From Methanoregula sp. (GTDB lineage Archaea > Halobacteriota > Methanomicrobia > Methanomicrobiales > Methanospirillaceae): a DNA stretch of 64,000 bases. This document shows, piece after piece, positions 15,648 to 43,017 of this stretch. A program made the position numbers and the translations under genes. How positions within the stretch are numbered: position 1 is the first letter of the stretch; every line of letters begins with the position of its first letter. The stretch is taken from contig NZ_JAQTQD010000004.1 in NCBI RefSeq assembly GCF_028712425.1, forward strand, positions 34,925-98,924, read 5' to 3'. The notes below the pieces were generated by a model. That model was not told the DNA's origin and did not search any database. It saw only the letters and a list, made by a program, of their open reading frames with translations.

Positions 15648-15804
15648 AATGTCACTTTGTAATAATCATATTTATTTTACTCGACCAATTGACACTTTTT
15701 TTTGAAATCAGATGTACGAGAAAATCTCATTTCTCGGGGGAATTCTCATCCTGCAATTTTTTTCAAATCAATTTTATAGATTCAATACAAAAGGAGAATT
15801 TGTT
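15648..15804. promoter_or_regulatory. Divergent promoter region, exonuclease and TerB operon
   Basis: AT-rich spacer with TATA-like tracts near 15662-15676 and 15753-15775. AAGGAG at 15791-15796 sits correctly before the ATG at 15805 and decides that start over the upstream in-frame ATG at 15712. Confidence 0.45.
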
Positions 15805-18156: not shown

Positions 18157-18180
18157 TTGTTCGGCGGAGTGTGAGATGAT

Positions 18181-19527: not shown

Positions 19528-19544
19528 TTTTTTGGAACACTACG

Positions 19545-21710
19545 ATGCAAAAAACCGCATTCTCTTACCTCCATCCAACAATTCAAGAAAAACTCTACAA
19601 GATGTGCTGGACGGAACTGAGGCCAATCCAACAGGATGCTATCCGCTTTCTATTTACAACGGATAAAAACCTGATAATCTCTGCAAGAACTGCTTCCGGA
19701 AAAACTGAAGCTGCATTTCTTCCAATCTTGTCGCAGATTGTAGAGAAGAAAGGGATTGGTATTTCTGCGATCTATGTCGGTCCTCTCAAGGCCCTCATCA
19801 ACGATCAGTTCCAGCGGCTGGAAAGACTCTGTGAATTATCAGATATACCCGTCTTTATGTGGCATGGGGATGTGGGTAGCAGCAGAAAGGCAAAGTTTCT
19901 GAAAAAACCTTCCGGGATTCTTCTTATCACCCCGGAATCCATTGAATCACTTTTCATAAACCATCCCAATGAACTCTCCCGTCTTTTCGGTTCGTTGTCG
20001 TTCATTGTTATCGATGAAATGCATTCATTCATCGGCTCCGAGCGAGGATCGCACCTTAAAAGCCTGCTCTCAAGGATCATTCAAAAAAGTCCCAAAGGAG
20101 TCCGGTTTATTGGCCTCTCGGCAACCTTTGGTGATCCAGAGCGAGTCAAACAGTGGCTCATCCCGAGAAACCCGGATTCAATCGAGATTATTTCCGATCC
20201 CGAGATACATAAAGAGATCAAGTATCTTGTCCGGGGATACGTTTTTGAAAAACCCTCCAAAGAACAGCCTGCACTTGGAGAACCGGAAACATCACCTATC
20301 ATCGAAGATATCCTGAAATTTTTCTATGGAAAAACCGCCTTGATTTTCGTGAACAGTCGGGAACTTCTTGAATTTTATACCGATAGTACACGTAGACATC
20401 TCGAACGAAAAAACCTCCCGGATTATTTCAGGATTCATCATGGATCGCTCTCGAAAAGTGAACGGGAGGAGACAGAGGCGGCCCTGAAATCGGACCAGCC
20501 AACAGCAACATTCTGTTCGAGCACATTGGAGATGGGAATAGATGTCGGGAATGTCTCACGCATCGGACAGATCGGCGCCCCCTGGTCGGTGAATTCGCTG
20601 GCCCAGCGTATCGGCAGGAGCGGGCGCAAGGAGAGTGAGGCACAAATTCTGATTATGTTTATCATCGAGAGGGACACAAAGGAAGATTCGCTCATCGAAC
20701 GGATGCATCCCGAACTTATCAGGGCGGTAGCGATGTCGGAACTCATGCTCTTTGAAAAATGGTGCGAACCGCCCCAGATCGGTTTTTTTCATTTCTCTAC
20801 TTTGATCCAGCAGATCTTGAGTGTTATCAGGGAACATGGCGGATCAACTGCAAAGGATCTTTTCAATACTCTTGTCAAAGAAGGATCTTTCGAGAACGTC
20901 CGACAGGAGGATTTCATTCAGATCTTGCGAAACATGGGATCCGCAGACCTTATTGAACAAGATGATCGGGGGATACTGATACTCGGTCTTGAAGGAGAGA
21001 GGATTGCGAACAATTTTGAATTCTATTCGGCATTCGCAACACCGAAGGAATTCAGTGTTGTCCACAAGGGAGGAAAGATCGGTAGTATCCCGTCTGCTCC
21101 AGATCTCGAAACCCGCGAGTTCCTGATTCTTGCCGGCCGCCGGTGGGAGATCCTCTCGATTGATTTCAAGCGATGCGAGATCCTTGTCGAGCCATCTAAA
21201 GGTGGGAAAGTGCCGAAATATTTTGGAGGGGGCGGGGCCGAGATCCACGAGAGAATCCGTGAAAAAATGAAGGAGATTGTCATATCGGATTCAATTCCTT
21301 CTTATCTCAATTCAGGAGCACAGGAGATGCTTAAGGAAGCCCAACAGGTAGCTAAATCAGTAAATCTCTCAGAGACTTCATTCGTGGTTGACGGTCCTTT
21401 CACGTACTGGTTCACTTGGACCAGTTCGGCAAAACACCGGACGCTTTTCACGCTGGGAAAGGAGTTTGCCGGCTTCCATGTCGAGGATGAGGAGATTGCC
21501 CTTAAGTTTAAAGGAGTCTCGCCATCGCAGATCCTCGAAAAATACAAAGAGATACTTGAATCGTGTCCGACTCCGGATGAGATTGCGGCGAAGTTCCAAG
21601 GTCGTACGAACGAGAAGTATGATCAGTTTGTTCCGGAGGATCTGCAAATTGCGGAGTATGCGAGGAGGTTTATTGATAATAATATCCTGCTTTCCGTTGA
21701 GAAAGGTTAA
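19545..21710 (+). CDS. Lhr-like DEAD/DEAH superfamily II helicase (BrxHI-like)
   Basis: 721 residues, 17 bp after the ATPase gene. Helicase motifs in order: Q-motif region LRPIQQDAIRF, Walker A SARTASGKTEA (about 46-56), GPLKALIND, LITPESIESL, Walker B FIVIDEMH, GLSATF, and motif VI QRIGRSGR. The C-terminal 300 residues resemble the accessory part of Lhr-type helicases. With the ATPase and TerB protein it forms a TerB-DUF2791-helicase set. Its substrate is unknown; unwinding of foreign or stalled DNA is an inference from the family. Confidence 0.87.
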   Translation: MQKTAFSYLHPTIQEKLYKMCWTELRPIQQDAIRFLFTTDKNLIISARTASGKTEAAFLPILSQIVEKKGIGISAIYVGPLKALINDQFQRLERLCELSDIPVFMWHGDVGSSRKAKFLKKPSGILLITPESIESLFINHPNELSRLFGSLSFIVIDEMHSFIGSERGSHLKSLLSRIIQKSPKGVRFIGLSATFGDPERVKQWLIPRNPDSIEIISDPEIHKEIKYLVRGYVFEKPSKEQPALGEPETSPIIEDILKFFYGKTALIFVNSRELLEFYTDSTRRHLERKNLPDYFRIHHGSLSKSEREETEAALKSDQPTATFCSSTLEMGIDVGNVSRIGQIGAPWSVNSLAQRIGRSGRKESEAQILIMFIIERDTKEDSLIERMHPELIRAVAMSELMLFEKWCEPPQIGFFHFSTLIQQILSVIREHGGSTAKDLFNTLVKEGSFENVRQEDFIQILRNMGSADLIEQDDRGILILGLEGERIANNFEFYSAFATPKEFSVVHKGGKIGSIPSAPDLETREFLILAGRRWEILSIDFKRCEILVEPSKGGKVPKYFGGGGAEIHERIREKMKEIVISDSIPSYLNSGAQEMLKEAQQVAKSVNLSETSFVVDGPFTYWFTWTSSAKHRTLFTLGKEFAGFHVEDEEIALKFKGVSPSQILEKYKEILESCPTPDEIAAKFQGRTNEKYDQFVPEDLQIAEYARRFIDNNILLSVEKG

Positions 21711-21886: not shown

Positions 21887-23710
21887 ATGAGAATTCAAAA
21901 AGTAAAAATCCGCAATTATCGCAGCATCTGTTCTTTGGAGGTTCTATGCGAACCGGAGGTGATTCTTCTTGGACCAAATAACCATGGAAAATCGAACATC
22001 CTTTCTGCTATTGAATTTGCACTTACTCCATCAGCGAAACCTCAAGATGAAGATCTAAATGCTTTTTGCGGAGAAGACTACGAAATTTGGGTTGAACTCA
22101 CTTTTCATGAACTATCGGAACAGGAAAAAAATACATTTAAAAAATATCTCCGAAATGATGGCACGTTCCTCATACGGAAAACTGCAAAGAAATCACAGGA
22201 AGGTAAAATCGAGACCGAATACCGGGGATCAATGTTAGAACCGGAACAATCCTGGCTAAAAGAATCAGAAATAAGGAATTTGGCTTCCCGAGATGCAATT
22301 AATCCAATCCCGCTTCGGGAATATGTCCCTGCAGCTGGACGAATAACTCAGGATATGGTCAAAACAGCACAATCCCAATATATTGAAGAACATCGAGCAG
22401 AGCTTATTTTTCATGAAAATCTCACAACAACCAATTTTTTAGGACCTAAAAATATTGGAGGAGGCAGCCTTCCAGATTTCTATATCATCCCAGCGGTTCG
22501 CGATTTATCTGACGAGACAAGAATAAAAAATACCACAATGTTTGGAAAATTACTTGGGCGAACAATTCAAGAGATGGCCGAACGGGATCCCCAATATCAA
22601 CAATTATGCAATGGAATTGAGCAACTTGTAAAAAGACTTAATCGTTCTGATGCAGATCCTCAGAATAGACCTACGCAAATGGTGGATCTCGAAACACGCT
22701 TATCTGAAGAATTGCGTGATTGGGGTGTTAGTGTGGAAATTGAAGTAATCCCCCCAGAAATTGAAAAAATTTTTGAACTTGGGACAAATTTGAGTTTGGA
22801 TGATGGTGTTAAGACCCTTGCAGAACAAAAAGGCCATGGTCTGCAGAGAGCAGTAATTTTTGCTATCTTTCGAGCATGGGCAAAAACCTTAAGAAGCAAC
22901 ACTCAACCTGATGCGGCCGTCCCTCGCGCATCATCAGATTCACTGATTTTTGCCATCGAAGAACCTGAATTATTTCTTCATCCTCAAGCACAACGAAAAA
23001 TGGCACAAGCATTACAGGAAATTGCAGTTACTCCTCAACATCAAGTTCTGATATGCAGTCATTCAAGTCATTTTGTAGACCTTGAAAAATACCGGAGTAT
23101 TTGTATCATTTCAAAAGAAAATCCAAGGGATGGAACATCTGTTCGACAGTGTTCGAAAGATCTTTTTGAAGGGACAACACATCAAGATCGAAAAAAGAAA
23201 TTTCACGCGGCTCATTGGATAAATCCAGACCGTGGTGAAATGTTCTTTGCAAAGAAAGTCGTTTTTGTTGAGGGTGAGACGGAAAAAGTAATTTTCCCAT
23301 TTTTAGCCGATAAAATGGGCTGTTTTAAACACGACGTCTCAATAATCGACTGCGGGTCAAAACATAACCTACCGATGTATATTGCAATCGCGAATGCATT
23401 TAATCTAAAACATGTTGTCGTTCATGATGAAGATCCCCTTCCTTCAACCATTCCACCCGATTGGAATCCTGATAAAATTCGTGAAAAGACAAAAACATTC
23501 GAACTGAACCATGAGATTGCTACCCAAATTAATCCTGATTTTGGAATTGCGCTTGTAATTACTAAAGATTTTGAACAAGCTGCGGGCATTTCGTTAAATC
23601 AGGTAGATAAGAAAGGTAAAGCACTCGCAGCAGTAGATTTTTTTGGCACTAAAGGGGTAGATGAAATACCAATTGAACTCAAAAGCATCGTGACGGAAAT
23701 ATACTCCTAA
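21887..23710 (+). CDS. OLD-family ATP-dependent nuclease (AAA plus TOPRIM)
   Basis: 607 residues. The ABC-type ATPase has Walker A GPNNHGKSN (about 29-37) and Walker B LIFAIEEPELFLHP (about 355-368), then a His switch region ICSHSSHFVD. A TOPRIM nuclease domain follows (about 450-560) with VFVEGETEK and VVHDEDP, keeping the acidic residues. This is the OLD architecture, as in phage P2 Old and GajA. GajA works with a UvrD-like GajB encoded alongside on the same strand; here the neighbouring UvrD-like gene is on the other strand and is AddA-like, so this is treated as a stand-alone OLD protein. The gene is AT-rich, a sign of separate acquisition. Confidence 0.88.
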   Translation: MRIQKVKIRNYRSICSLEVLCEPEVILLGPNNHGKSNILSAIEFALTPSAKPQDEDLNAFCGEDYEIWVELTFHELSEQEKNTFKKYLRNDGTFLIRKTAKKSQEGKIETEYRGSMLEPEQSWLKESEIRNLASRDAINPIPLREYVPAAGRITQDMVKTAQSQYIEEHRAELIFHENLTTTNFLGPKNIGGGSLPDFYIIPAVRDLSDETRIKNTTMFGKLLGRTIQEMAERDPQYQQLCNGIEQLVKRLNRSDADPQNRPTQMVDLETRLSEELRDWGVSVEIEVIPPEIEKIFELGTNLSLDDGVKTLAEQKGHGLQRAVIFAIFRAWAKTLRSNTQPDAAVPRASSDSLIFAIEEPELFLHPQAQRKMAQALQEIAVTPQHQVLICSHSSHFVDLEKYRSICIISKENPRDGTSVRQCSKDLFEGTTHQDRKKKFHAAHWINPDRGEMFFAKKVVFVEGETEKVIFPFLADKMGCFKHDVSIIDCGSKHNLPMYIAIANAFNLKHVVVHDEDPLPSTIPPDWNPDKIREKTKTFELNHEIATQINPDFGIALVITKDFEQAAGISLNQVDKKGKALAAVDFFGTKGVDEIPIELKSIVTEIYS

Positions 23711-23763: not shown

Positions 23764-26700
23764 TCAACTCGCCACAAAATCGCCACTATCAATAAAGTAT
23801 AATCTCCCAGTGACCCTCATATCACAAAGCATCTGTTTTGCCACTTTAATGTAAACATCCATTGATACTGAATAAAAATTTATATTCTTTGAGTGACCCG
23901 AAGCCAAACGTATAGTCTCTGACTTATAATCCACTACCACCCAACTCCCATCCTCCATCTCACACAACCGGTCAATCCTCCCCACCACCGGCTTCCCTTC
24001 AATCGTAACAACAAACGGCACCTCGCAATACGACCGCTTCACCTTCTTCATCAAATCAGAATTGAGAAAAGCAGAACGGATCTCCTCGCATTGCCGGACA
24101 TGCTCCTCCGAATATTCGCCATACTCGCGCAAAACCGTCGCAACATCCCGGCCCCGGAGCACTTCGTGGATGATCGTTCCCTTCGTTGCGCCCTCGACCT
24201 CCGACAGGTATTTTGATTCTACCGTTTTATGGGATTTTTGCAAATGATTCTTTTCTTTCTCTTCGATAGCTGAAACCGATTCTGGTCGAATTCTCTCTCT
24301 CCCTTTCTTCGGTTTTGGTTGTTGCCACGTCCCGGTCTTTCCCGCACATTCCTCCGGCACGACAATCAGTTCCGGCTCCACCCGCCCGGTCTCGGCCGGG
24401 ATCGATCCGGGATCGGAGACGATCGACAACCGGATCGTTCCGGCCCCATCCGGCAGTGCGAGATCAAGCCCACCAGAGGTAATAGCATTCCCGGTCACGC
24501 CAAACGCTGTGAAGATCCATTCGATCCGGGACCGGGCAAGATCGTACGACAACCCGGAATCCTCCGGCATGGTCCCGCTCATGATGAGATGGTCCCGGGC
24601 CCGGGTGAGGGCAACGTAGAGCAGCCGCTTCCGTTCAGCCCGCTCCTTCTGCTTCTGCTGCTCTCGCAATGCAAGGAAGACCGGGCTCTCGGTCATCTCG
24701 AAATTCTCCCGGGGGTTCGGGACCTTTACGCCAACCATCAGCGGGTTGTCTCCGATCAGGATCGGTGAAGTAGTGTTCGGGAAATTCATGCCCATGTCCG
24801 GCACAAAAACAATCGGGAACTCCAGCCCCTTTGCTGCATGCACGGTCATAATGTTGACGGCATTCTCGGCAAGGGCATCGAGATGGGCCTCGCCCTCCCG
24901 TTCATCATCCTCCATCGCGAGCCGGAGATCCGCGGTGAAATCGGCAAGCGAATAATTCCCGGCCTCCTCTCTGGCCCGGGCCATGGCAACCAGCTTCTCG
25001 ATGTTGGCAAGGATCTGTTCGCCGGCCGGGAGCGCTGCATAGATTGGGTATACACCGGACTCCGATAAAATCCGGCGCAGCAGGGACACCAGGCCGGTCC
25101 GGCCGGCATATGTTTGCCAGGAAGCGAGAAGATCGCGGGAACGGGTTGCCGGCCCGGGACCGGTCCGCTCTGCGTATTTCCCGAGCTTGTCCCAGAGCGT
25201 CCGGCCGTTCTCCTGTGCAATATGGAAGAGCTCCGTATCCGGCAGGCCGAAGTACGGGGACCGGAGAATGCCGGCAAGGCTGATATTGTCATGCCGGTAT
25301 TCAAGGAACGAGAGGATGTTCGTAAGATCGTACACTTCCTGACGGTGGTAAAACCCGGTCCCCCCGTGGACATAGAAGGGGATGCCGTACTCGCCCAGCG
25401 CAGAAATATACTGCGGGAGGTTGGTCCGCTGTTCGAGCAGGATCGCGACATCGCCGTACCGGGCCGGGCGCTGGGCAAACGAATGATCCGGTTGTTCCTC
25501 GTACACCGTAAGGGGCTGCGAATGGATAGCGCAGTGGATCCGCCGGGCAACCATCGCAGCTTCGTTCCGTTTGGTTCCGGCAGCATCGCTTCCTTTCGGG
25601 GGCAGAAGGAGTTCAACGGAACCGGTATGATCCGCACGGCTTCCGGATATCCTGACCGGTTCGTACCCGAACTCCCATGGTTTTTCTGCGGATGCAAGGA
25701 GCCGGGAGAAGAGGAAATTCGCAAGGCCGATCACCTCTTTCGTGCTCCGGAAACTGGTATCGAGATCGATCTTCCTTCCCGTGCATGCCGTTGTGATGAT
25801 CTCCTGTGCTTCCTTGAACCGGGTCACATCTGCATCGCGGAAGAGATAGATCGACTGTTTGGGATCCCCGACAATGAAGAGACAATCCGTGGATGGGGAC
25901 GGCGTCCCGATAATGGAGAGGATGATATCGAACTGCGTCAGGTCCGTGTCCTGGAACTCGTCAACAAGGATGTACCGGAACCGGGGCATGAAGTGCGTGG
26001 TGACAAGATCGCGCTGCTCAAGGAAAAGCCGGCGGGCATGGAGGATCAGGTCCGAAAAGTCCAGGCCCCCAAGAGAACCCTTGCCGGTCCCGACCAGCTC
26101 CAGGTACCGGAAGAAAACCAGGGACAGGTCGTGCAGGAACCGGATCGACCCGGTGATCACCGGGTCGGAGGGATCCATCGTCATCCGGAAGAGGGAAATT
26201 TTCTGTTCGAGAATGTCGTTCAGGCACTTGCGTGCACTCCTGAACTCAGCAAGATCATTGCCCCTCCAGTTCTTTTTGCTCCCGATATTCCCGGGTCTCT
26301 TCCGCTCCAGCTCAAGAGCAGCCGAACAGAATTTTTCCGTATCTTCAGGATCAGAAAGCCGGGAAAGGAGGGGCTGGATCTCCCCTAAAAACTGTGCAGC
26401 CTTGTCATCAACACCTGCATACGCGGATGCTAACCCCAGCAGGGTTCGGACGCTGGAAGAGAACGAGGGATTGTTCCGGAGTGCGGCAATCTCATCGTCA
26501 CGGAATTCGCTGACTTCTCTCGTCCAGGTTTTCAGCACATGCGTCTCATCAGTATCAAGAGCCGCAAAGAACTGTGCATAGCGCTCCCGCCGTTCGTACA
26601 TTGTAGAGAGGATCTTCCGGAGGTTGGTCTGGTCCGTGATGGAGAGAACGTGCACGAGTGCCTCATTGACCGGCCCATCCTGCGGGGAATGAATGAGTTC

Positions 26701-27096
26701 GTCGAATGCATGGTTGCGGATACGGGTGGCCTGCTGTTCGTCCAGCACAATAAATCCCGGCTCAAGGCCGGCTTCGATCGGGAATTCCCGGAGCACCTGC
26801 GCACAGAACGAGTGGAACGTCTGGACCGGTGCAATCATGAAATCCTCGGCAGCCTTCTCCCACCGCTGACCTTCGTACCGGAGAATCTCGGCCCGGATCC
26901 GCTCTTTCATCTCGGCTGCGGCCTTATCCGTGAACGTCAGCGCAAGGATCTGGGGTACCGTGACGGGCCGGGTTTTGAGCAGATCGATATATTTCTGCAC
27001 AAGCACGTAGGTCTTACCCGTCCCGGCTCCGGCCGTGACTACCATGCTCCGGTCGTGGGTGGTGATCGCTTCGCCCTGTCGTGGTGTTGCTGCCAT
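23764..27096 (-). CDS. AddA-like UvrD/RecB helicase-nuclease
   Basis: 1110 residues, starting MAATPRQGEAI at 27096 with GGAGGAG before it, directly after the AddB-like stop. A UvrD-type superfamily I helicase: Walker A TAGAGTGKT (about 21-29), ILALTFTDKAAAEMKERI, ILVDEFQDTDLTQ, VGDPKQSIYLFRDAD, MTVHAAKGLEFPIVFVPD, LLYVALTRARDHLI. The C-terminal RecB nuclease domain (about 960-1110) has GTIIHEVLRG, GRIDRLCEMEDGSWVVVDYKSE. It should process double-strand ends with its partner. An upstream in-frame extension to 27291 lies within the AddB-like gene in another frame and is rejected. GC-rich, unlike OLD and the SbcC/D pair. Confidence 0.9.
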   Translation of the reverse strand: MAATPRQGEAITTHDRSMVVTAGAGTGKTYVLVQKYIDLLKTRPVTVPQILALTFTDKAAAEMKERIRAEILRYEGQRWEKAAEDFMIAPVQTFHSFCAQVLREFPIEAGLEPGFIVLDEQQATRIRNHAFDELIHSPQDGPVNEALVHVLSITDQTNLRKILSTMYERRERYAQFFAALDTDETHVLKTWTREVSEFRDDEIAALRNNPSFSSSVRTLLGLASAYAGVDDKAAQFLGEIQPLLSRLSDPEDTEKFCSAALELERKRPGNIGSKKNWRGNDLAEFRSARKCLNDILEQKISLFRMTMDPSDPVITGSIRFLHDLSLVFFRYLELVGTGKGSLGGLDFSDLILHARRLFLEQRDLVTTHFMPRFRYILVDEFQDTDLTQFDIILSIIGTPSPSTDCLFIVGDPKQSIYLFRDADVTRFKEAQEIITTACTGRKIDLDTSFRSTKEVIGLANFLFSRLLASAEKPWEFGYEPVRISGSRADHTGSVELLLPPKGSDAAGTKRNEAAMVARRIHCAIHSQPLTVYEEQPDHSFAQRPARYGDVAILLEQRTNLPQYISALGEYGIPFYVHGGTGFYHRQEVYDLTNILSFLEYRHDNISLAGILRSPYFGLPDTELFHIAQENGRTLWDKLGKYAERTGPGPATRSRDLLASWQTYAGRTGLVSLLRRILSESGVYPIYAALPAGEQILANIEKLVAMARAREEAGNYSLADFTADLRLAMEDDEREGEAHLDALAENAVNIMTVHAAKGLEFPIVFVPDMGMNFPNTTSPILIGDNPLMVGVKVPNPRENFEMTESPVFLALREQQKQKERAERKRLLYVALTRARDHLIMSGTMPEDSGLSYDLARSRIEWIFTAFGVTGNAITSGGLDLALPDGAGTIRLSIVSDPGSIPAETGRVEPELIVVPEECAGKTGTWQQPKPKKGRERIRPESVSAIEEKEKNHLQKSHKTVESKYLSEVEGATKGTIIHEVLRGRDVATVLREYGEYSEEHVRQCEEIRSAFLNSDLMKKVKRSYCEVPFVVTIEGKPVVGRIDRLCEMEDGSWVVVDYKSETIRLASGHSKNINFYSVSMDVYIKVAKQMLCDMRVTGRLYFIDSGDFVAS

Positions 27097-27097
27097 A

Positions 27098-30000
27098 TCA
27101 GGTCTCCTCCCCCGACTGGAATACCCGGTACGGATCGAAGCGGCAGATCTGTCTGAATTCACAATACGTATTCGGGCATTCCTCTTCAGCCGGCAGCGGG
27201 AAGCGGCCGTTCCGGATCCCTTCGATGTAGGCAAAGGCACAGTCACGGGAGTGCTGGATCGTGCCGGAAAAATCTGCAGATGGACGAACACGGGAGATCA
27301 TCAGGTCCTTTGCAGACGGATCCGCGAGCACGAGACTCCGGGTAATCTCGCGCCGTATTTTATAATATCCCCCGCCAACACCGTGATTGCCGGATATCGT
27401 TTCGAATGCTGAAAGATAGAGCGGCAACTGCAGGGCAGTTCCGGCCTCGATCTCTTTTGCTTTGGGATGCTGCAGGCCGGACTTGTAATCATAGATCACG
27501 AACTGCCCATCAGGTGTAAGATCGACCCGATCGATCCGGCCCCGGATGAACATCTTCTGTCCGCCATCCTGCGAAACAAGTTCAACCGGTTCCGGAACAG
27601 ATGACGGATCATCTGATTCACCCGCCTCCATGCCAAAGGAGAATTCAAATCGCGAGGGAATGAGCGGTGAATTTTCTTCACCCGCTTCATTGATTAAAAA
27701 TCTCTCAAAGTATCCGGGCCCGGTATATTTGTCCCCAAGCATCAGGATCCGGGTCGCGTCCCAGAGCGGGCTCTGGAAGGAATACTGTGCCAGTTCTTCC
27801 GATGCGATCTTCAGGATCATTTCCGTGGCATCGTTCAATGAAGCGAGACTGACCTTGTTGTGACCGGCAGAACGCCACTGCCGGTAAAAGGCACTCAGGA
27901 TATCGTGGATGGCAGTTCCGCGATCGCTGGCTGAGAGATTCGGCTCTACTTCCGGTAATTCTTTGAGATTGATCACCCGGCCTAGGAAGTAGGCAAATGG
28001 GCAGTTGGCATAGGTCTCAAGGCTTGTCGGGGAATACACGTGATCCGGCCCATAGTGACCAGCAAGTGCTTCCTGAATTGTCTCATCGCCGGACAGGATG
28101 CCATCATACGATGAATCACACACGCCGGTCCGGTGATACCGTTCCATGTTGACGCGTTCTGCGAGATTGTCAATCCCGAGAGCATCCGGAATCATTTCAA
28201 GTGCTTCGCAAACCTTTGCGTCACGGATCAGGGAACCCGCTTCGATAGCAGCGGTATGACGGGATGCCGATCGTGCGGTGGCGTCTGCATCGGGCCAGGG
28301 AGAATTTCCAATTCTCATCTTTACGCGTTCAAAGAATGCGGAGGTGAGCAGGGGCTTTTCCCCGTCGGCAAGCGGGGCACTGAGGTAAACGGTCTTCTGC
28401 GCAGAGAGAATCGCCGCAAGGAAAAAATACTGTTCCTCCCGGAGGATCTCGGAAAGGGAACGGGTTCCCATGCGGGCATTTTCGAGCGTGTTGGTGAACG
28501 GGAGCCGGGTTGTCAGTCGGGGAAACGTACCTTCAACCAGTCCCCCGATAAAGACAACCGGGAACCTTAGGTGCTGAGATTCGCGAAGGCCAAGCACCGT
28601 AACTCCATCAGAATCTTCAAGCCCGCTCTCATCCGGCTCTTCGGTAATGGAAGTGATATAGCGGGAGAATGCACCGGCAGTGATTACCTCATCATCAGGG
28701 AGCCATGCAGCCTTTTCAAGTGCCTCAAGCCGGGAACAGAACTTCTGATAACTCTGGATCTCCCGGTCCTTTGTCGGTTCATCGGGTGCAGAATACAGGT
28801 GCGGGATATTCCACAATGCCAGGAACGAGCGGAATCCCCGGATATGATCCCGGAGATTTTTCTTTCCTGCCAGAATTTCCAGGTCCGAACGGAAAACCTT
28901 CAATCCTTCCGCAACACGTTCAACGGTCTGAACCGAGATACCCGGGTAGTTCCTGGCTTTTTTCGGATCTCTCAATTCCCGGTGGAGCCATTCCAGCTGC
29001 CGGTCCCACGAAGGGTGGGGCCCGTCAATCCCGGCGTACCGGGATACAAGATCAACTTCAGCGGCATCAAGATGTGCGGTCCCTCCCGGGACAGCAGAGC
29101 GGAAATAAGGGCTGCCCACAACCCGGACAACATCCTCCCGGGAAAATCCTCTTTCGCCGATACCGGCAATCGCTATGAGAAACTGGATGACCGGCGCCTG
29201 GGAAAGCCGGGGGCCGATCCCTGCATTCCAGGGAATCCCAAAATCCGAGAAAACCTCTTCAATAATTCCATAATTCTCCCGGAGATCCGGAAATGCCACG
29301 GCAATAGAAGAAAGAGGAGTCCCGCTGGCATTCAGCCGGTGGATTTCAGCCGCGATTCCATATACTTCGGCATAGCGCGAGGGGAAGGTACGGAGCCGGA
29401 AAAATTCTCTCGCATCCAGGTGTGTGCTGCTGGAAAAGAGACCGGTGATCTGAGATCGTACTGAAGAAGGATCGCATGACGGCGGTTGTCCGGAATTGTG
29501 TCCATCTGGGAGATGACTCCGGAAAATATTCCGATCAAGACCATCGGGAATACTCTGAAAAACCGTTCCGGCATGGTCCCGGATTGCCTCAAAAAGATCC
29601 TGTTCAATCGGCAAAGGTTCATGGAATCCGTAGATGAAAATCGTTCCGAGCAAGGATAGTTCGCAACGGTTTACCTGATTGATTGTCCATTGAACGATCG
29701 TATCGCTGTCAACCAGATCGAGATCTCTCAAGCTATCCCGGTAAAGGGTTATGATCGCATCGAGCTGATCGCTCTTCTCGCTCTGTAAACCGACGAGACA
29801 TTCAGGAAAGGCAACTTTCCTTGTGAAGGTGACGTTCATAAACATCAGGAGATCATCCACAGTTCCTGGGGAAGGATGATTGCGATTTACAAAGAATCGG
29901 ACGTTTTCTCTGTTCTCTTCCAGTAACCGGGAAAGTAATAGTTTGGATTCGCTTTTTGACAGGAGACGTTCGGTTGTCCGGTTCTCTTCAAACAGGATCC

Positions 30001-30238
30001 TGCAGAATCCCTTGAGGGTACAGATACGGGAAGGAATGAACGGAATATTGTTTCTGATCAGGTGATCGGTAACCTCAAGGACAAGTCTCTCCGTGGGCAG
30101 AAGGAGCCATGTTGTGAAGGAATCTTCCTTTGCAGTTGCAACAAAACGATCGATAACCGAATCCAGCTTTTCCCCGGGAAGTCCGTAATCGAACGTGACT
30201 GCCCGATTCTCGGATTCCGGAGAAAATCTTGCTGGCAT
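27098..30238 (-). CDS. AddB-like PD-(D/E)XK nuclease / inactivated helicase
   Basis: 1046 residues. It has the AddB layout: a degenerate superfamily I helicase core, and a C-terminal RecB-type nuclease (about 745-1046) with AIHDILSAFY, RGRIDRVDL, FVIYDYKSG and LQLPLYLSAF. Four Cys, one in TYANCPFAYF and three in CPNTYCEFRQIC, match the AddB iron-sulphur staple. The N-terminus shows no Walker A GxxGxGKT motif, so ATP hydrolysis is doubtful and AddA would be the motor. The stop is one base from the AddA-like start, implying coupled translation. Confidence 0.87.
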   Translation of the reverse strand: MPARFSPESENRAVTFDYGLPGEKLDSVIDRFVATAKEDSFTTWLLLPTERLVLEVTDHLIRNNIPFIPSRICTLKGFCRILFEENRTTERLLSKSESKLLLSRLLEENRENVRFFVNRNHPSPGTVDDLLMFMNVTFTRKVAFPECLVGLQSEKSDQLDAIITLYRDSLRDLDLVDSDTIVQWTINQVNRCELSLLGTIFIYGFHEPLPIEQDLFEAIRDHAGTVFQSIPDGLDRNIFRSHLPDGHNSGQPPSCDPSSVRSQITGLFSSSTHLDAREFFRLRTFPSRYAEVYGIAAEIHRLNASGTPLSSIAVAFPDLRENYGIIEEVFSDFGIPWNAGIGPRLSQAPVIQFLIAIAGIGERGFSREDVVRVVGSPYFRSAVPGGTAHLDAAEVDLVSRYAGIDGPHPSWDRQLEWLHRELRDPKKARNYPGISVQTVERVAEGLKVFRSDLEILAGKKNLRDHIRGFRSFLALWNIPHLYSAPDEPTKDREIQSYQKFCSRLEALEKAAWLPDDEVITAGAFSRYITSITEEPDESGLEDSDGVTVLGLRESQHLRFPVVFIGGLVEGTFPRLTTRLPFTNTLENARMGTRSLSEILREEQYFFLAAILSAQKTVYLSAPLADGEKPLLTSAFFERVKMRIGNSPWPDADATARSASRHTAAIEAGSLIRDAKVCEALEMIPDALGIDNLAERVNMERYHRTGVCDSSYDGILSGDETIQEALAGHYGPDHVYSPTSLETYANCPFAYFLGRVINLKELPEVEPNLSASDRGTAIHDILSAFYRQWRSAGHNKVSLASLNDATEMILKIASEELAQYSFQSPLWDATRILMLGDKYTGPGYFERFLINEAGEENSPLIPSRFEFSFGMEAGESDDPSSVPEPVELVSQDGGQKMFIRGRIDRVDLTPDGQFVIYDYKSGLQHPKAKEIEAGTALQLPLYLSAFETISGNHGVGGGYYKIRREITRSLVLADPSAKDLMISRVRPSADFSGTIQHSRDCAFAYIEGIRNGRFPLPAEEECPNTYCEFRQICRFDPYRVFQSGEET

Positions 30239-30360: not shown

Positions 30361-33069
30361 TTATGACAATTTACCATCAGATGGAACACTAATTACATGT
30401 CCCTTAATTCCAGTATATGGCGTATCATTACAAGTTGCCACAATTATCTGGCACGAGTTATTTGACACTTCTTGTAGAATTAAACTTAACCGTTTCATTC
30501 GCATGGGATCGGCATTTACCAAACGATCATCGATTACAACGAGGTTACGTTCATTTTTACTCAAGATGACACCTAACGCCAATCTTAAAAGCACGACAAT
30601 TTGTTCATGCGTCCCATAACTCAAACTGTCCAATGGTAATTGTGTACCATATCTGTTACTTTGAATTGCAATTGGTAATAATTCCTCATTAAGCTCCAAG
30701 CCCGCATATGAATCATCGGTCAACATGACAAGGTACCGATTCACTAACTCACTGATCGGTCCAGCAAGCATGGTTGATTGTTCTTTTCTGAGAGCAATTA
30801 CCATATCATGCAATAATTTTATTGAATTTGCTTCGAGTTGGACACTCGCCAGTCTGCGTTTTTTTGTTTCAAGGAGCCCCTCAAGATCTGATATTTGAGA
30901 ATACAAACCCTGTGCAGCTGACTCTTCAATTCGAGCATTACGATCAATAATTTGGTTTTCATTAGTCCTAATTTGCTCTTCGAGAGCTGTGACTTTATGT
31001 TCTCCTTCAGCATACAGTTTTCGAGGAAGAACAACCATTTTTTCATAATCCATTAAAATATGATTAAGATCGCCAGTAGCTGTCGATAAGAGGTTACGGT
31101 TTTTCTCAATAAGAGTGACCAAATTATCACGAGAACCATAATTTTTAAGCGATTCTACATTTTCATTATTTAAACTGTTAATTTCTGAATTGCTGCGCTC
31201 AAATTTACTCCGTTCATCGATTGCATTCTGAATTAATGCTCGGGATTTATCTCTTGATGATTTTTCCATTAATTGTTCTTTTTCTATATCCTCGACCAGC
31301 TGTTTTTTTGTTTTTTCTGTCTGGATAATTTTTTCACGAAGGCCTTTGCCAGACAATTTTTTCCAAGTCGCTGGTGCACTTTCTATAGATTGCGATTCTT
31401 CAGCAATTTCCTGCTCTAAACGTCTGAACTCGTCATCAGAATTCTTACCTTTATTTTCATCGAGAAGGGTATCCAAGTTTTTCTTAAGTTGTTTTACTTC
31501 TCTTTCTAAGTCGATCCTATTCTGATAACGATCAGAAAGATCCTGTTTATTTCTGACATTAAACCGAGAGAAGGTATTTTGGATACTTTTTTGGAATGAT
31601 TGTGATTTCTCGATGATCTCTTCAAGAGACGATCCGCCACCTCTAACATGAATCTTACCTATTTTTTTAATGTCAAATATTGTCGGGGTTAGGACCGAAT
31701 ATTCGTGTTTAACATCGGTATGGGATGCTGTTGGTGTAGATCTAATATCCGAATCCTCGATGTTCAGGTCAAATTTTATACGAATTGCACTCGCTTTTGC
31801 TTCTGCTTCCACTCTCTGAAATTGATCCCAACTTTCTTCAAATTCGTGCCATTCATGTTTTGAGGGCGCAATTAATTCAGTAAGTTTTTTCTTTTTTATT
31901 TTGTATTCTTCATCGGCTTTAGATAATTTTGAAAGGTATTCATGTAAAATTTCTTTTGAGTTTTCCAATCGCGAAAGATTTTCTATTTTATGTAACAACG
32001 ACAACTCATCTTCAATCTTTTTTAACTGGGGTTCAAGATCATTTTTCCACTTTTGATGATATTTTTCTTCGGTATTTTGTTCAATCCTGGAATCAGCTTC
32101 GCATCGTTCTGCAACTTCTTTTGCTTCAGATAATTTCTGATTTAATTCATAAATTATTTTGATACGCCGATCGATCGTTTTTAATTCTTTCTCAAGGCCA
32201 CTTATTTTATTGTTTAATTCCGTTATTTCAGAGTCTTTCACGCGTTTTTGATCTTCAATTCTGTCGGCATTCTCTAATTGTTGTTTTTGACTGGTCAACT
32301 CATGTTGTGCAGTTATCAAGGAATTCTGTTTTTCTTTTTTTATCTCGTAGAATCCCTCAAGTTCTAAACGAAGGTTCTCTACATTGGAAGCCTTTATCCG
32401 AAGATCTTCAAACTCATTTTCTTTCTGACTAATTTCTTCTCTAAGGCTGGCAAGCTCACAACCAGATTTTATTTTCCCACTTTGAGATGTCCAATATCGA
32501 TCATAAAGATCATCAATTGAAGTGCATATCGCATCTTCTTCAGGACGTTTTATAACAAATTCGATTATTCCAGCAAGATCTTGTTTGATCCCATCAGCCC
32601 ACACTTTTTTTGGGAGGGGATCTTCATTCTGCAAATACCACAATGCTTGTGCCAATCCCCGGTGTTCAGGTTGAGATGCTCTGCTGGATGAATTTCCCTT
32701 AAGGATCTTTTGAAGTTCAATATCTGCTTTATCACCCTCGTGATCCAATTCCCAACGACCATTTCGTTCTGAGCTAAGTTCACTGATTGGGGCATGAAGG
32801 AATCGCTTTTTAATTTTTAATCGCTTACCATTATCAATAAAAATTATCTCAGCTTCGGGACCTAGTGAACTATTCAAAGGTTGAATTTTTCTAATTTCTT
32901 CCGCTTTTGATGAAAAACGATCAAACATTACCCTCGCAAGTGCTTCGAATAATGTTGATTTCCCGGCCTCGTTTCTTCCAACAACAAGGTTAAACCCCTT
33001 ATCAAAAGAGAAGGTATGGGGTTCCCTGTATCCTCTCCAATTTTTTAGGGAGATTTGTTCAATGATCAT
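30361..33069 (-). CDS. SbcC/Rad50-like coiled-coil ATPase without zinc hook
   Basis: 902 residues. N-terminal Walker A GRNEAGKST (about 31-39), some 650 residues of coiled coil, then the C-terminal half-site with signature LSYGTHEQIVVLLRLA in place of LSGGE, and Walker B NLVVIDDRLVNAD with Asp-Asp where most ABC enzymes have Asp-Glu. No Cys-x-x-Cys zinc hook is visible in the coiled coil. These traits fit YhaN-type relatives of SbcC better than canonical Rad50. It follows its SbcD partner with a 4-bp ATGA overlap. Very AT-rich. Confidence 0.85.
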   Translation of the reverse strand: MIIEQISLKNWRGYREPHTFSFDKGFNLVVGRNEAGKSTLFEALARVMFDRFSSKAEEIRKIQPLNSSLGPEAEIIFIDNGKRLKIKKRFLHAPISELSSERNGRWELDHEGDKADIELQKILKGNSSSRASQPEHRGLAQALWYLQNEDPLPKKVWADGIKQDLAGIIEFVIKRPEEDAICTSIDDLYDRYWTSQSGKIKSGCELASLREEISQKENEFEDLRIKASNVENLRLELEGFYEIKKEKQNSLITAQHELTSQKQQLENADRIEDQKRVKDSEITELNNKISGLEKELKTIDRRIKIIYELNQKLSEAKEVAERCEADSRIEQNTEEKYHQKWKNDLEPQLKKIEDELSLLHKIENLSRLENSKEILHEYLSKLSKADEEYKIKKKKLTELIAPSKHEWHEFEESWDQFQRVEAEAKASAIRIKFDLNIEDSDIRSTPTASHTDVKHEYSVLTPTIFDIKKIGKIHVRGGGSSLEEIIEKSQSFQKSIQNTFSRFNVRNKQDLSDRYQNRIDLEREVKQLKKNLDTLLDENKGKNSDDEFRRLEQEIAEESQSIESAPATWKKLSGKGLREKIIQTEKTKKQLVEDIEKEQLMEKSSRDKSRALIQNAIDERSKFERSNSEINSLNNENVESLKNYGSRDNLVTLIEKNRNLLSTATGDLNHILMDYEKMVVLPRKLYAEGEHKVTALEEQIRTNENQIIDRNARIEESAAQGLYSQISDLEGLLETKKRRLASVQLEANSIKLLHDMVIALRKEQSTMLAGPISELVNRYLVMLTDDSYAGLELNEELLPIAIQSNRYGTQLPLDSLSYGTHEQIVVLLRLALGVILSKNERNLVVIDDRLVNADPMRMKRLSLILQEVSNNSCQIIVATCNDTPYTGIKGHVISVPSDGKLS

Positions 33070-34196
33070 TTCATCCCCCCCCTCCGAAATGAACGAAGCA
33101 TACTTTTAGCTTTTTGAACTACGGCACGATCTTCTCCCGCAAAGACATTGCAGGGGGGTTGTGGAATCTTCCCCAATAAAATATCAGTTAGTGCTTCATT
33201 CACTCCTTGAACAAGACCTTCAGGCAATTGCGCCTCTAAATCCGGATTAACAGAGATCTCCACTTGTTCCCACTGCAAAAAAAATGCCATCTCATCCAAT
33301 TCATCGCGAAGTGTTTTCAGCTGTTGAAAAACGCGATCATCGTGCTGAATATGAATACGGAGATTGATTCGTATTACTAATGTTGAATATGATCCGAGTG
33401 CCTTTAATTTCTCTTCAAATTTTTCTAAATCTGTAATGTCTTGAATATCCAATGAAAATTTTGCCCAAGTTAATGTGGAACATCTTAATTTTTCGAAATT
33501 TGGGGAAACCTGTGGTGCAGGAATATCCACAATCACAATATTTCCGGAATCGGGTTCATCATAACTTGTCGGTTCGAATGTACCTGGATAGATACTGCGA
33601 CCATATTGAGAAAAGCTATGCCAGTCCCCAAGAGCGAGATAATCCAGACCTTTGTCATCAGCACATTTTATTGATATTGGAAAATTTATTTCCCCGGGTA
33701 AACTGTCCAATGATCCATGAGCTATCCCGATACGAATTTTCTCATCAGTGATGGCTCTTTTCGGTATCCATGATGTTGGGTCAAGACTGCTACGCTTTTG
33801 TTTTACAGGACATGGAAAGATAGCCACATTACTTCCCAAGTCGATCTCCTCCTCAACAGTGAGTAAATGGATATGCGAACCTACTCTCTGCCAGCTAGTA
33901 CGATCCCAGATTCCACCGGGAATATATGGATCATGGTTCCCAGGAAGTATGAATACTGGAATTGGAGCAAATTGATTTAGAATGTCAACAGTTTTTTTTA
34001 CGACAACTTCATCGACGTCTGGGTGTTCAAAAAGATCTCCTGCAATAAGCACAAAACCTACTTTTTTTTGTTGAGCAATATTTACGATTTTTTGAGCGGT
34101 TACATATCGTTTTAACCTGATTTCTTTTGATTTATTTCCTGTATGTACCGCACGCATTCCCATCTGCCAATCTGCGGTATGAAGAAATCTGACCAT
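33066..34196 (-). CDS. SbcD/Mre11-like metallophosphoesterase nuclease
   Basis: 376 residues with calcineurin-type phosphoesterase motifs in order: LHTADWQMG, GDLFEHPD, LPGNHDPY, IAHGSLD, LALGDWHSF. In the first motif Gln stands where many SbcD/Mre11 proteins have His (Asp-x-His), which may alter one metal site or mark a subfamily. The C-terminal 120 residues form the capping and partner-binding region. The gene overlaps the SbcC-like gene, so the pair should form a complex at DNA ends. It diverges from the truncated Rad50-like remnant. Confidence 0.87.
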   Translation of the reverse strand: MVRFLHTADWQMGMRAVHTGNKSKEIRLKRYVTAQKIVNIAQQKKVGFVLIAGDLFEHPDVDEVVVKKTVDILNQFAPIPVFILPGNHDPYIPGGIWDRTSWQRVGSHIHLLTVEEEIDLGSNVAIFPCPVKQKRSSLDPTSWIPKRAITDEKIRIGIAHGSLDSLPGEINFPISIKCADDKGLDYLALGDWHSFSQYGRSIYPGTFEPTSYDEPDSGNIVIVDIPAPQVSPNFEKLRCSTLTWAKFSLDIQDITDLEKFEEKLKALGSYSTLVIRINLRIHIQHDDRVFQQLKTLRDELDEMAFFLQWEQVEISVNPDLEAQLPEGLVQGVNEALTDILLGKIPQPPCNVFAGEDRAVVQKAKSMLRSFRRGGMK

Positions 34197-34201
34197 CCTT
34201 T

Positions 34202-34660
34202 TTGCCCCCAGTAATGACGGTATTATTTTTATTGAATCTTCAATACTTCGATATTCCCTCCAATTCGAAATTTACTATTGGCTTCAATGACCTATCGAGA
34301 ATTTTTGCGAATGTGATCTTCAACCTCCTTGTGCGGGACATTGACAACGATTACCCCATCGAGCGTTTCAGCGGGGGCGAACAGGACGACATCGCAGTCG
34401 CCTTAAGAATCGCCCTCTCGCGGTACCTTGCCGAGCTCCACCAGGTCCACGAGTCAACGTTCCTCATCTTTGATGAGATCTTCGGGAGCCAGGACGAGGA
34501 GCGGAGAGCGAACCTCTTAACTGCACTTCGCACGCAGGAGTCCCGGTTCCCGCAGATTCTCTTGATCTCGCACATCGCCGAGATCCAGGGTGAATTCGCC
34601 AACACGCTTGTTGTCGAGATGGGCACGGACAGCGCGAGCCGGGTGCGGGAAGCGGAATGA
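34202..34660 (+). pseudogene. Truncated C-terminal remnant of a Rad50/SbcC-type ATPase
   Basis: Only the last part of an SMC/Rad50-type ATPase remains. It has signature RFSGGEQDDIAVALRIALSR, Walker B STFLIFDEIFGSQD and D-loop, then LLISHIAEIQGEFANTLVVEM. A normal protein would have hundreds of residues before this, with Walker A and a coiled coil. Real similarity seems to start near 34290, where composition switches from AT-rich to GC-rich; the first 25-30 codons look like chance reading of island DNA. The signature is canonical and unlike the neighbouring SbcC-like protein, so this is a remnant of a different, probably native gene. Confidence 0.82.
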
Positions 34661-34848
34661 TGCCGGCTGGATCCGGATCTCTGCGGTAACCGCCGGACGT
34701 TTTTCCCGCAGAGCCCCGGTCCCACCCCGCCAATAACGGACACCTCCCCGCGAACAGATCGCAAGCGTTTGGGCAAAAAAGAGTGCCTGTTCTATCGGGT
34801 CGTCCTGCATTCCTGTGCGGCGACCGGGCAGGATTACCTTAATGCGCG

Positions 34849-35971: not shown

Positions 35972-36196
35972 ATGAACGTTACAATCGACCGGGTGACCTG
36001 CGTGAGCTGCGGGTCCTGCCGGGGCGCATGCCCGGGATTGTTTGAAGAGAACCCGGATGACTCATTCAGCCAGATTACCGGGAAATTCCGCAGCAACGGC
36101 AACATCGCGGAAGGCACTCCCTCAGGTGAGCTCGAAGAATGTGCCCGGGATGCTGCGGAGCTCTGCCCGGTGCAGATCATCAGCATCAGCGATTGA
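35972..36196 (+). CDS. Single-cluster ferredoxin
   Basis: 74 residues. Cys at 10, 13 and 16 (CVSCGSC) and Cys65 in LCPV are the expected ligands of one 4Fe-4S cluster. Cys20 and Cys57 could form the disulphide seen in several single-cluster ferredoxins. It is a soluble electron carrier; the partner cannot be told from the neighbours. Confidence 0.85.
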   Translation: MNVTIDRVTCVSCGSCRGACPGLFEENPDDSFSQITGKFRSNGNIAEGTPSGELEECARDAAELCPVQIISISD

Positions 36197-40400: not shown

Positions 40401-41417
40401 ATGAAGGACGAGTACGCGGGTGCAGTGAACGAGGCGGCAGGCCGGATCCGGGCAAAGGTCCCTGGCGATCTCATCGGAAAGTTCCGGCAGACCTGCGGTA
40501 TCCGGAACAGTGATTTTGTCTCCTGTACGCTCCGGGCCTGCGGTGAGGTCTGCGCTGTCGACGGTTCCAATGTCACGCTCCTTGAATCCGGCAGCATGGC
40601 GCTCGCGGTCGTACGGGCTGCGCAGGCAACGTTTGTTGGCATGGAGCGAACGAAGCGTTCCGTCACGCCATTGCATTTCTCCCTCATCGGCCCGCAAGAG
40701 GAGAACCAGGACTTTCCCGTGCTCTACGCAGACTGTTTCGGTCACCCGCCGGGAAAGTCGCTGAACAATGAGGACATTGCCCGGGCAGCAGAAGTCCTCC
40801 GGGACACGGTTGAGTTCTGGGTCACGGAGACGATGGCCCGCGGGCTCGGGGAGGGCGCTCTCCTGCTGCGGGACGGGCCCCTGCGGGTATCGCACGAGAG
40901 CCACAATCCGGTGCTCACGAGGATCGTGCTCGCCTGCCGCGACCGGGAGATCAGCCTTGCGGGGATCTCGAAACGGTCGGCAGCGACCTGGGGTGGCGGC
41001 CACCCGCTCCTTCCCGCGGTGGCGGGCCTCGCAAAGGAGTGCGGAGTCCGGGCACCCTGGTGGATCGCAATCGATCCCGCTATCCTCGACCACCAGCCCC
41101 ATGCCCAGTGGCAGCATGGCGCAATGTACGTGGCCTGCCTGCACGGGCACGCGGCAGGGCCGCTCAAGATCGAACTTCCCCGGGACACACGGAACGCAGC
41201 GTCGGTCATGGACCGGCTCGCCGCGTGTTCCGGAGACGGCCGGATCCCGGGGTACCCGTATCCCCTTCTTGACGCCCACCGCACTGTTGTGCTGACAAAG
41301 GAGATTACCGACCAGATCAAAGGCGACCTTCTTTTGAGCCTCACGAACGCCGGTATCGATCGGCAGACCTATGAGATCCTGTTCGGAGATTACCATGATG
41401 CATTTGCGCGATACTGA
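40401..41417 (+). CDS. nurA: NurA 5'-3' nuclease
   Basis: 338 residues. NurA-domain signs are the early AVDGSN with the metal-binding Asp, LLLRDGPL, and AGISKRS with the conserved Lys. NurA works with the HerA translocase, and with Mre11-Rad50, in archaeal end resection. herA follows with a 23-bp overlap. The nearest Rad50-type gene on this side is the truncated remnant at 34.2 kb, so the usual mre11-rad50 neighbours are lost or elsewhere. Confidence 0.88.
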   Translation: MKDEYAGAVNEAAGRIRAKVPGDLIGKFRQTCGIRNSDFVSCTLRACGEVCAVDGSNVTLLESGSMALAVVRAAQATFVGMERTKRSVTPLHFSLIGPQEENQDFPVLYADCFGHPPGKSLNNEDIARAAEVLRDTVEFWVTETMARGLGEGALLLRDGPLRVSHESHNPVLTRIVLACRDREISLAGISKRSAATWGGGHPLLPAVAGLAKECGVRAPWWIAIDPAILDHQPHAQWQHGAMYVACLHGHAAGPLKIELPRDTRNAASVMDRLAACSGDGRIPGYPYPLLDAHRTVVLTKEITDQIKGDLLLSLTNAGIDRQTYEILFGDYHDAFARY

Positions 41418-43017
41418 AACAACCGACCTCTCCAAGTACCGGCTCATCGGCAGGAGCGTGCTCTCCTACCGCTTCATCGCCCCTCATGACGAGACGCTCT
41501 ATATCGGTGACATTAAGAAGATCGTGGACCGGACCAAGGGTGCCACCTTCTTTGCCAAGGTCACTGATCTCTCGCACGACTCCAACTTCACCGACCCGAA
41601 ATGGGACACGCGGGTGTATGCCGAGCAGTTCTACGGGCTTGGGGAGGATGTCTTCATCACCGTCGACGCGGTGCCGCTCGGGTTCGTGGATCGTGACGGG
41701 AAGTTCCACAAGCCCCGTACCATCCCCTCCAAGTTTTCTGTGGTTGAGGACCCGACGGCAGAGGATTTCCGGTTCCTCACCGAACAGATGGGCGAGATCG
41801 AGGTGGGCCTGATGCGGAGCGGGCAGGGCGTGATCCGTGATGTAGCCGTTCGCATCCCGGCAAAAGTGCTCCCGCAGCACATGGGCGTCTTTGCCACTAC
41901 TGGCATGGGCAAGTCCAATTTCATGAAGACCTTCTGTGCCTCCTGCATGAAAGAGCAGAAGTTCGGGCTCCTGATCGTGGACCCGCATGGCGAGTATGTC
42001 AGCGGTGGCAAGTCTTCCACGGGAGATCCGACAAAAGGGCTTGTCCATTACACAAACGGGAAAGACGGGCTTGCCATCTTCACAATCCGGGGCGAGGCGG
42101 ACCGGAAAAAGTACGCCATGAACAGGCTCTGGCTGGAGTATGACGATTTCCGGATCAGCGACCTCTCCATCCTGTACGACCTCACCTCCGCCCAGTACGA
42201 TATCATCGAGGCTTTCTCCCGGGTCAGCGGGAACGAGGCGATCCGGTTCTTCGAGCAGGTTGATCCGGAGATCTTCCCCATCAAGGACCCTCTTGCGGCC
42301 GGCGTACAGGAAGGGAGCCTCGCGTGGCTGATCCGGAACTCCATGGCAGGCCCGGTCCGGGTCATCCAGCGCCATATCGAGAACATCACCAAGTCCAACA
42401 GCGCATTCTTCCGGCAGAGCGGGTCGTCCATCGGCGAGATCATCAAAAATCTCCACAACAACCGGGTGGTTTTGATCGATATCCCGGACATGGGCGAGCG
42501 GAGCGAACTCTTTGTCCTCTCCATCATCACCCGGATGATCATGGAAAAGCACCGCAGCGAGGCCCGGGGCTTTGGTATTGATGAGAAACAGGAGGCAAGC
42601 CACCAGGTGCTCATCACTATCGAGGAGGCGCAGCGGGTGCTTGCCGCGGGCGGTGCTTCCACCCAGATGTTCCGCGAGTGTGCCATGGAAGGCCGGAAGT
42701 TCGGCGTGGGGCTTTGTGTCATCACCCAGCAGCCAAAGAATGTGGACGCAAAAGTGCTCGCCCAGATCAACACGTTCGTTGTTATGGGTCTTGGAGACCG
42801 GGGCGACCGCGAGATCATCATGGGAAGTGCCAAGCAGGACTTAAGCAAGATGGAGATCGAGATCCAGACTCTCGACCGGGGCGAGGCGATCATCTCCACT
42901 ATTGGCATCCCGTTCCCGGTCAGCACCCGGATCCACCGGTACGAGGACTACATCGCGACACTCAATGCAGTAAAGAAGAAGGATGCCCGCGAGGGGCTCA
43001 CGACCGGTTTCTCGTAA
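41395..43017 (+). CDS. herA: HerA hexameric DNA translocase
   Basis: 540 residues from the ATG at 41395 (GGAG seven bases upstream), overlapping the nurA end. The N-terminal HAS-barrel is followed by an FtsK/HerA-type ATPase: Walker A FATTGMGKSNFMKT (about 168-181), VDPHGEY, Walker B LITIEEAQRVLA, and an arginine-finger region GVGLCVITQQPKNVD. It pumps DNA to NurA during end resection. The start at 41371 is rejected as too deep in nurA and lacking a ribosome site. Confidence 0.92.
   Translation: MMHLRDTETTDLSKYRLIGRSVLSYRFIAPHDETLYIGDIKKIVDRTKGATFFAKVTDLSHDSNFTDPKWDTRVYAEQFYGLGEDVFITVDAVPLGFVDRDGKFHKPRTIPSKFSVVEDPTAEDFRFLTEQMGEIEVGLMRSGQGVIRDVAVRIPAKVLPQHMGVFATTGMGKSNFMKTFCASCMKEQKFGLLIVDPHGEYVSGGKSSTGDPTKGLVHYTNGKDGLAIFTIRGEADRKKYAMNRLWLEYDDFRISDLSILYDLTSAQYDIIEAFSRVSGNEAIRFFEQVDPEIFPIKDPLAAGVQEGSLAWLIRNSMAGPVRVIQRHIENITKSNSAFFRQSGSSIGEIIKNLHNNRVVLIDIPDMGERSELFVLSIITRMIMEKHRSEARGFGIDEKQEASHQVLITIEEAQRVLAAGGASTQMFRECAMEGRKFGVGLCVITQQPKNVDAKVLAQINTFVVMGLGDRGDREIIMGSAKQDLSKMEIEIQTLDRGEAIISTIGIPFPVSTRIHRYEDYIATLNAVKKKDAREGLTTGFS

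Follow-up and report, generated by a model that had tools for sequence, protein, structure and literature searches.

A 64,000-nucleotide stretch of a Methanoregula sp. contig (the window) carries a short gene that encodes only the C-terminal end of Rad50, next to a divergent pair of SbcC/SbcD-like genes. This arrangement raises the question of what became of the native mre11-rad50 genes, whose product has been termed universally conserved in a review (PMC7690668), and of what now stands in their place. The original prediction was that an incoming AT-rich island had deleted most of a native rad50 and had brought or kept a divergent SbcC/D pair at the site. Our analysis makes it highly probable that the short gene is the right-hand scar of an in-situ exchange, in which a module composed of AddAB and a companion replaced mre11 and all of rad50 except its last 113 codons. 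The features discussed below are, in window coordinates:

23764 to 27291, minus strand: addA-like gene (UvrD/RecB-type helicase-nuclease); the true start is probably at about 27096 (MAATPRQ...)
27098 to 30238, minus strand: addB-like gene, 1046 aa, with a C-terminal PD-(D/E)XK nuclease domain flanked by cysteines; identity to sister genome G033 falls abruptly at about 28000
30361 to 33069, minus strand: yhaN-like gene (SbcC/Rad50-type ATPase with coiled coil), 902 aa; signature LSYGTHEQ; AT-rich; nearest relative, at 60%, in genome G136
33066 to 34196, minus strand: yhaO-like gene (SbcD/Mre11-type metallophosphoesterase), 376 aa
34197 to 34317, no strand: junction, intergenic from the yhaO start to the stump, devoid of Rad50 homology; contains the yhaO upstream region and the ORF start at 34202
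34318 to 34660, plus strand: rad50 3' stump, residues ~700-812 of native Methanoregula Rad50 (812 residues), with signature and Walker B
35972 to 36196, plus strand: ferredoxin gene, the conserved right-hand neighbour of rad50 in the nearest relative (locus L021)
40401 to 41417, plus strand: nurA, apparently intact, retained despite the loss of mre11-rad50
41371 to 43017, plus strand: herA, intact, 87-91% identity to relatives

A 3' remnant of the native rad50 gene

The ORF at 34202-34660 (plus strand) contains SMC_N and SbcC_Walker_B matches in a Pfam search, and its best protein match is Methanoregula Rad50 (98% amino-acid identity over 114 residues, E 2e-69), which bears out its prediction as a truncated Rad50-type remnant. 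The ORF exists at the predicted position, but Rad50 homology begins only at 34318/34319, and nearly all DNA alignments with about 30 relatives start at ~34318. The translation from 34319, FNLLVRDIDNDYPIERFSGGEQDD..., aligns with residues 700-812 of Methanoregula Rad50, i.e. its last 113 residues; the initial 39 codons of the ORF bear no relation to Rad50 and lie upstream of the divergently oriented yhaO gene. The GC content per 50 bp rises from 0.38 through 0.44 to 0.60 across 34250-34400, so that the AT-to-GC switch expected at about 34290-34320 is real but gradual, lying between 34300 and 34350. The RFSGGEQDD signature is present as originally described and, together with FLIFDE, lies within 34318-34660, as in the C-terminal half of an archaeal Rad50. 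The stump is devoid of Walker A, hook and Mre11-binding coil, and neither the Walker A N-terminal half nor the coiled coil with its zinc hook was found in the stump or elsewhere in the genome; because these parts are absent, the stump is a remnant and not a Rad50.

With L021 as reference, 18 synonymous and no more than 3 non-synonymous changes fall on the stump branch. Relaxed selection is therefore not yet visible, and a long neutral history of the stump is excluded; the pattern would fit a recent truncation, refreshment by recombination from intact alleles, or selection. Recent truncation is favoured because the stumps of other genomes are shortened, broken or absent. The length of the rad50 stump varies among relatives (113, ~110 and 30 residues, the last being all that G033 retains), and the start points differ by ~15 bp between genomes. 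The same short gene is thus not a stable feature of relatives, given these lengths, a second copy in G017 that is frame-broken, and a stump in G013 that is interrupted by an assembly gap. By itself, the stump most likely has no function.

Loss of mre11-rad50 and retention of nurA-herA

A search of the genome (97% complete, 56 contigs) for an intact rad50, as the original prediction had proposed, returned the stump alone with a Rad50 query and nothing with a Mre11 query; hence, no intact rad50 or mre11 was found. The window itself sits inside a contig of 164,890 bases. In most relatives mre11-rad50 is intact at this same spot, often followed directly by nurA-herA. The anticipated complete pair was therefore present, but not beside a UPF0324 gene in any relative fetched: in L021 the ferredoxin gene directly follows rad50, and of all the loci fetched, only the one in this genome has the UPF0324 gene, here between stump and ferredoxin gene. 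The nurA-herA genes lie about 6 kb to the right of the stump, as predicted, at 40401-43017, and appear intact. HerA generally tracks Mre11, and the window genome belongs to the small group that has HerA without Mre11. HerA-NurA is essential in Saccharolobus islandicus (PMC12977600). A 22-bp element resembling a core promoter is common to the mre11 and nurA upstream regions.

The module next to the stump

Starting from the stump, the neighbouring genes are yhaO, yhaN, addB and addA, all transcribed away from it. The AddA-like protein combines an SF1 helicase core with a C-terminal RecB-type nuclease (UvrD-helicase, UvrD_C and a weak PDDEXK_1 match), and the AddB-like protein a degenerate helicase fold with a nuclease (PDDEXK_1, E 1e-39; weak ADDB_N). 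Both match the addA_Gpos (E 9e-105) and addB_Gpos (E 2e-26) models below the equivalog cut-offs. The 902-residue YhaN ORF contains Walker A (GRNEAGKST), LSYGTHEQ and VVIDD and matches AAA_15, AAA_29 and AAA_27, as an SbcC/YhaN-type protein does; its signature is indeed distinct from that of the stump, as originally noted. YhaO shows the SbcD/Mre11-type motifs (Metallophos, E 1e-10), with DWQ instead of DxH as motif I and GDWH as motif V, and these substitutions render its nuclease activity uncertain. The pair does not belong to canonical SbcCD as defined by TIGR00618/TIGR00619, since YhaO scores 35.9 against an sbcd cut-off of 77.65 and YhaN gave no sbcc match.

What stood in place of rad50 is thus wider than the SbcC/D-like pair originally proposed: native rad50 is truncated, the YhaN/YhaO pair now occupies the site and no intact copy exists elsewhere in the assembly, but the replacement comprises the four genes AddA-AddB-YhaN-YhaO. 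Nor does an incoming island describe its origin, because AT-richness and the lack of relatives in the other Methanoregula genomes examined are confined to yhaN/yhaO, whereas addA and the final third of addB are native, with 92-97% nucleotide identity to G033. AddAB is genus-typical, and its addA and addB 3' parts are not recent cargo.

A match of YhaNO to plasmids or viruses was sought as a clue to its origin and none was found. The module was also considered as a catalogued anti-phage system and rejected: PADLOC gave only generic ATPase/helicase cross-matches, and none for AddB, YhaO or the coiled-coil companion described below. Directly left of the module, at 15712-21710, lies a complete set of Shango defence genes (SngA, SngB, SngC), and an OLD-family ATPase with a TOPRIM domain (Old/GajA-like) is encoded at 21887-23710, between Shango and addA. 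SngA, SngB and SngC likewise lie left of addA in G003 (L144).

Recurrence of the displacement with exchangeable companions

In other Methanoregulaceae, addAB is accompanied by YhaNO, SbcCD or a coiled-coil protein, in the same position and orientation as in the window. The start codon of the companion lies ~80-125 bp from the stump and the module reads away from it. The distribution of companions and stumps is as follows:

YhaNO companion: G136
SbcCD companion: G013, G007, G197, G069 and G087; in a divergent arrangement in G001 and G016
Coiled-coil companion of ~496 residues: G033, G093, G006, G003, G018, G061 and G010
rad50 stump at the module: the window (YhaNO); G013/L108 (SbcCD); G093/L142 and G033/L110 (coiled-coil companion)
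herA stump at the module: G007/L118 (SbcCD); G003/L144 (coiled-coil companion); G136/L151 (YhaNO)

Other module loci lack a rad50 stump. In L144, L151, L152, L154, L117 and L109, the module is followed by the genes that come after herA in intact loci, and the position of the module therefore reflects displacement in place and not insertion elsewhere. On the left, the module and mre11 have no flanking sequence in common. The single island event of the original prediction does not survive this comparison, since the same displacement recurs across the family, where both the companion and the stump (rad50 or herA) vary.

Beyond this genome and G136, the 902-residue form of YhaN was found in only a few further Methanomicrobiales. 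The coiled-coil companion carries an invariant KPDN...VxFDAKSPK stretch resembling a PD-(D/E)XK nuclease core. It forms a family of ~500 residues (L110:9839-11326 and the A2 members) beside addB in seven Methanoregulaceae genomes, and also occurs in genus g13 of family f6. Its identification as RmuC was rejected, as no Pfam or NCBIfam match and no useful structure match by sequence were obtained; in a single-sequence AlphaFold model the C-terminal half was too poor for use. The protein is a candidate new end-processing factor.

Other loci show further variation. In G018 (L116), AddAB and the coiled-coil companion occupy the native locus, and a Mre11-Rad50 pair of divergent sequence (47%/33% identical) is encoded far away from it; this pair is foreign and was gained after the native one had been lost. 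In the single-contig genome G033, nurA is broken (L110:5536-6043), AddAB is present instead, and no native-type herA was found.

AddB and Mre11 across genomes

Among 75 Methanoregulaceae genomes, 3 encode both AddB and Mre11, 25 AddB only, 31 Mre11 only and 16 neither (Fisher p 2.8e-6, in a test that ignores relatedness of genomes); at 90% completeness or more, the respective counts are 1/21/24/10 (Fisher p 9e-7, with the same limitation). Because these tests ignore relatedness, a seryl-tRNA synthetase (SerRS) tree of 22 genomes was built. On this phylogeny, based on one marker gene and mostly on metagenome-assembled genomes, the occupant of the locus switches 8-9 times, 5-6 of which are forced by well-supported branches. 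Six independent pairs differ in AddB; Mre11 is opposite in five of them and changes in the same direction in none (sign test p 0.06, the minimum that 5 informative pairs allow). On AddB trees of 19 tips, the companion switches at least 8-9 times. An association between companion type and a matching AddB N-terminal lineage was discarded, as companions are scattered on both the N- and C-terminal AddB trees.

In a second family (f2), 0 genomes carry both AddB and Mre11. In the Methanoculleus family, Mre11 is also present in 28 of the 29 AddB carriers; this coexistence implies that AddAB alone does not render Mre11-Rad50 dispensable, and that the exclusion is a feature of some lineages only and not order-wide. 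Ten Methanoregulaceae genomes of at least 90% completeness have neither AddB nor Mre11, so that loss is possible without the AddAB module; one of them, G014, still has rad50, and mre11 is therefore missing from its assembly. Only an mre11 5' stump is present in G023 and G194 (L113, L155), where AddB was not found among the genomes searched, and likewise in G005 (L114).

Recombination traces at the locus

Comparison of the window with G033 at the DNA level revealed a mosaic. From 92-97% in addA and the last third of addB, identity falls abruptly to ~60% at about 28000, a recombination breakpoint inside addB; the companions show no relationship to each other, and identity returns to 96% in the rad50 3' end (34576-34667). 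This drop within AddB is extreme among all AddB pairs and the only strong mosaic. The N-terminal part of the G033 AddB is the odd one, with 51-57% identity to all others, and the tract was therefore probably replaced in the G033 lineage.

G025, which the SerRS tree places as sister to the pair formed by the window genome and G033, has intact mre11-rad50, and yet just upstream of mre11 lie two 3' fragments of addA (residues 1024-1125 and 1065-1125), together with a piece of the DNA that follows addA. These addA stumps and the sister position suggest a back-replacement, in which mre11-rad50 may have returned to a locus that once held addAB.

Partial gene copies are found at several other loci. 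G017 (L022:7375-7705) carries its frame-broken second rad50 3' copy ~4 kb behind intact rad50, after an ABC-transporter gene block, with a start within ~15 bp of the window break point. In G034 (L156:6356-8226), intact herA is followed by two partial copies of its 3' part; such serial gene ends suggest that the 3' end of the operon was exchanged repeatedly. Partial mre11 5' ends occur in G023, G027, G005 and G194. The region around the locus is a recombination hot spot. Integrase-type insertion at the rad50 3' end, with the stump as a displaced attachment site, is disfavoured, as no intact rad50 lies on another border and the stump starts differ by ~15 bp.

Alternative explanations

The defence genes directly left of addA (Shango SngABC and the OLD-family gene) and the AT-richness of yhaNO would agree with a one-off deletion, in which an AT-rich defence island grew to the right and happened to remove rad50, with YhaNO and AddAB as cargo unrelated to Mre11-Rad50 function; the coexistence of AddB and Mre11 in other families points the same way. 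We consider this unlikely, because in at least 6 other genomes, with different left flanks and companions, this module likewise borders on stumps of these genes, and it replaces the same operon in genomes that have no defence island. Furthermore, AddB and Mre11 largely exclude each other in the family with 5-9 independent changes, and addA and the 3' part of addB are lineage-typical.

It is very unlikely that the short ORF encodes a functional free C-terminal ATPase half of Rad50, for instance a regulator or inhibitor, kept by selection. Its open frame, the 98% identity to the Rad50 of a relative and the strongly synonymous substitutions are what selection would leave, and the 84 coding bases common to G033 differ synonymously only; a recent truncation, however, yields the same substitution pattern. 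Rad50 halves, as those of ABC-type ATPases, need the N-terminal Walker A half in order to work, and the stump lacks it; the homologous part of the stump also contains no start codon. Moreover, G033 retains only 30 residues, the frame of the second G017 copy is broken, and a rad50 stump is missing altogether from other module loci. An assembly chimera that wrongly joined the rad50 end to a foreign segment, conceivable in a 56-contig draft, is extremely improbable: the junction lies inside the 164,890-base contig, no further rad50 or mre11 sequence exists in the assembly, and the same type of junction is found in independent assemblies, including that of single-contig G033.

A model for the exchange

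The in-situ exchange by an AddAB-companion module accommodates these observations as follows. In Methanoregulaceae, the locus of mre11-rad50(-nurA-herA) would have been taken over by a bacterial-type end-processing module. From their sequences, AddAB would assume the resection of broken ends, and YhaNO (elsewhere SbcCD or the coiled-coil companion) the trimming of blocked or hairpin ends, which would allow the cell to survive without Mre11-Rad50. Homologous recombination may drive the exchange, acting through sequence that both versions of the locus possess: addA/addB at one border, and the 3' end of rad50 or herA, or else downstream genes, at the other. We further propose, tentatively, that the locus could be a reversible exchange site, where Mre11-Rad50(-NurA-HerA) and the AddAB module swap by homologous recombination using the stumps of earlier occupants (rad50, herA and addA 3' ends) as homology arms, and where the coiled-coil PD-(D/E)XK-like companion might act as an unrecognised substitute for Mre11-Rad50/SbcCD.

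Close relatives within a family of mesophilic methanogens differ in their end-processing system, with at least 5-9 in-place exchanges recorded as scars, and this bears on the replaceability of a repair machine often called universally conserved. No published report of AddAB, or of Mre11-Rad50 loss, in methanogens was found in the open-access papers searched.

Comparison with known systems

The stump corresponds to the 3' end of rad50 in the archaeal mre11-rad50-nurA-herA operon, which is complete at this place in intact relatives; unlike that operon, the window lacks mre11 and most of rad50, and nurA-herA remain 6 kb away. In Bacillus subtilis, addB-addA-sbcD-sbcC form a putative operon (PMC1533848). 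The module resembles it in encoding AddA and AddB together with an SbcC/D-type pair, and several related Methanoregulaceae modules contain true SbcC/SbcD; it differs in its archaeal host, its location at the rad50 locus, the presence of YhaN/YhaO in the window, and addA/addB scores below the bacterial family cut-offs. The window pair shares with YhaN/YhaO-type (AAA_27) pairs the AAA_27 and metallophosphoesterase matches, the gene overlap and the SbcC/D-like architecture, but is coupled to AddAB. Finally, the replacement of a resident set of genes by a foreign set of like function at the same place, with scars left behind, resembles non-orthologous (xenologous) in-situ gene displacement. Here, in contrast, the displacement has recurred many times in one family, apparently in both directions and with exchangeable companions.
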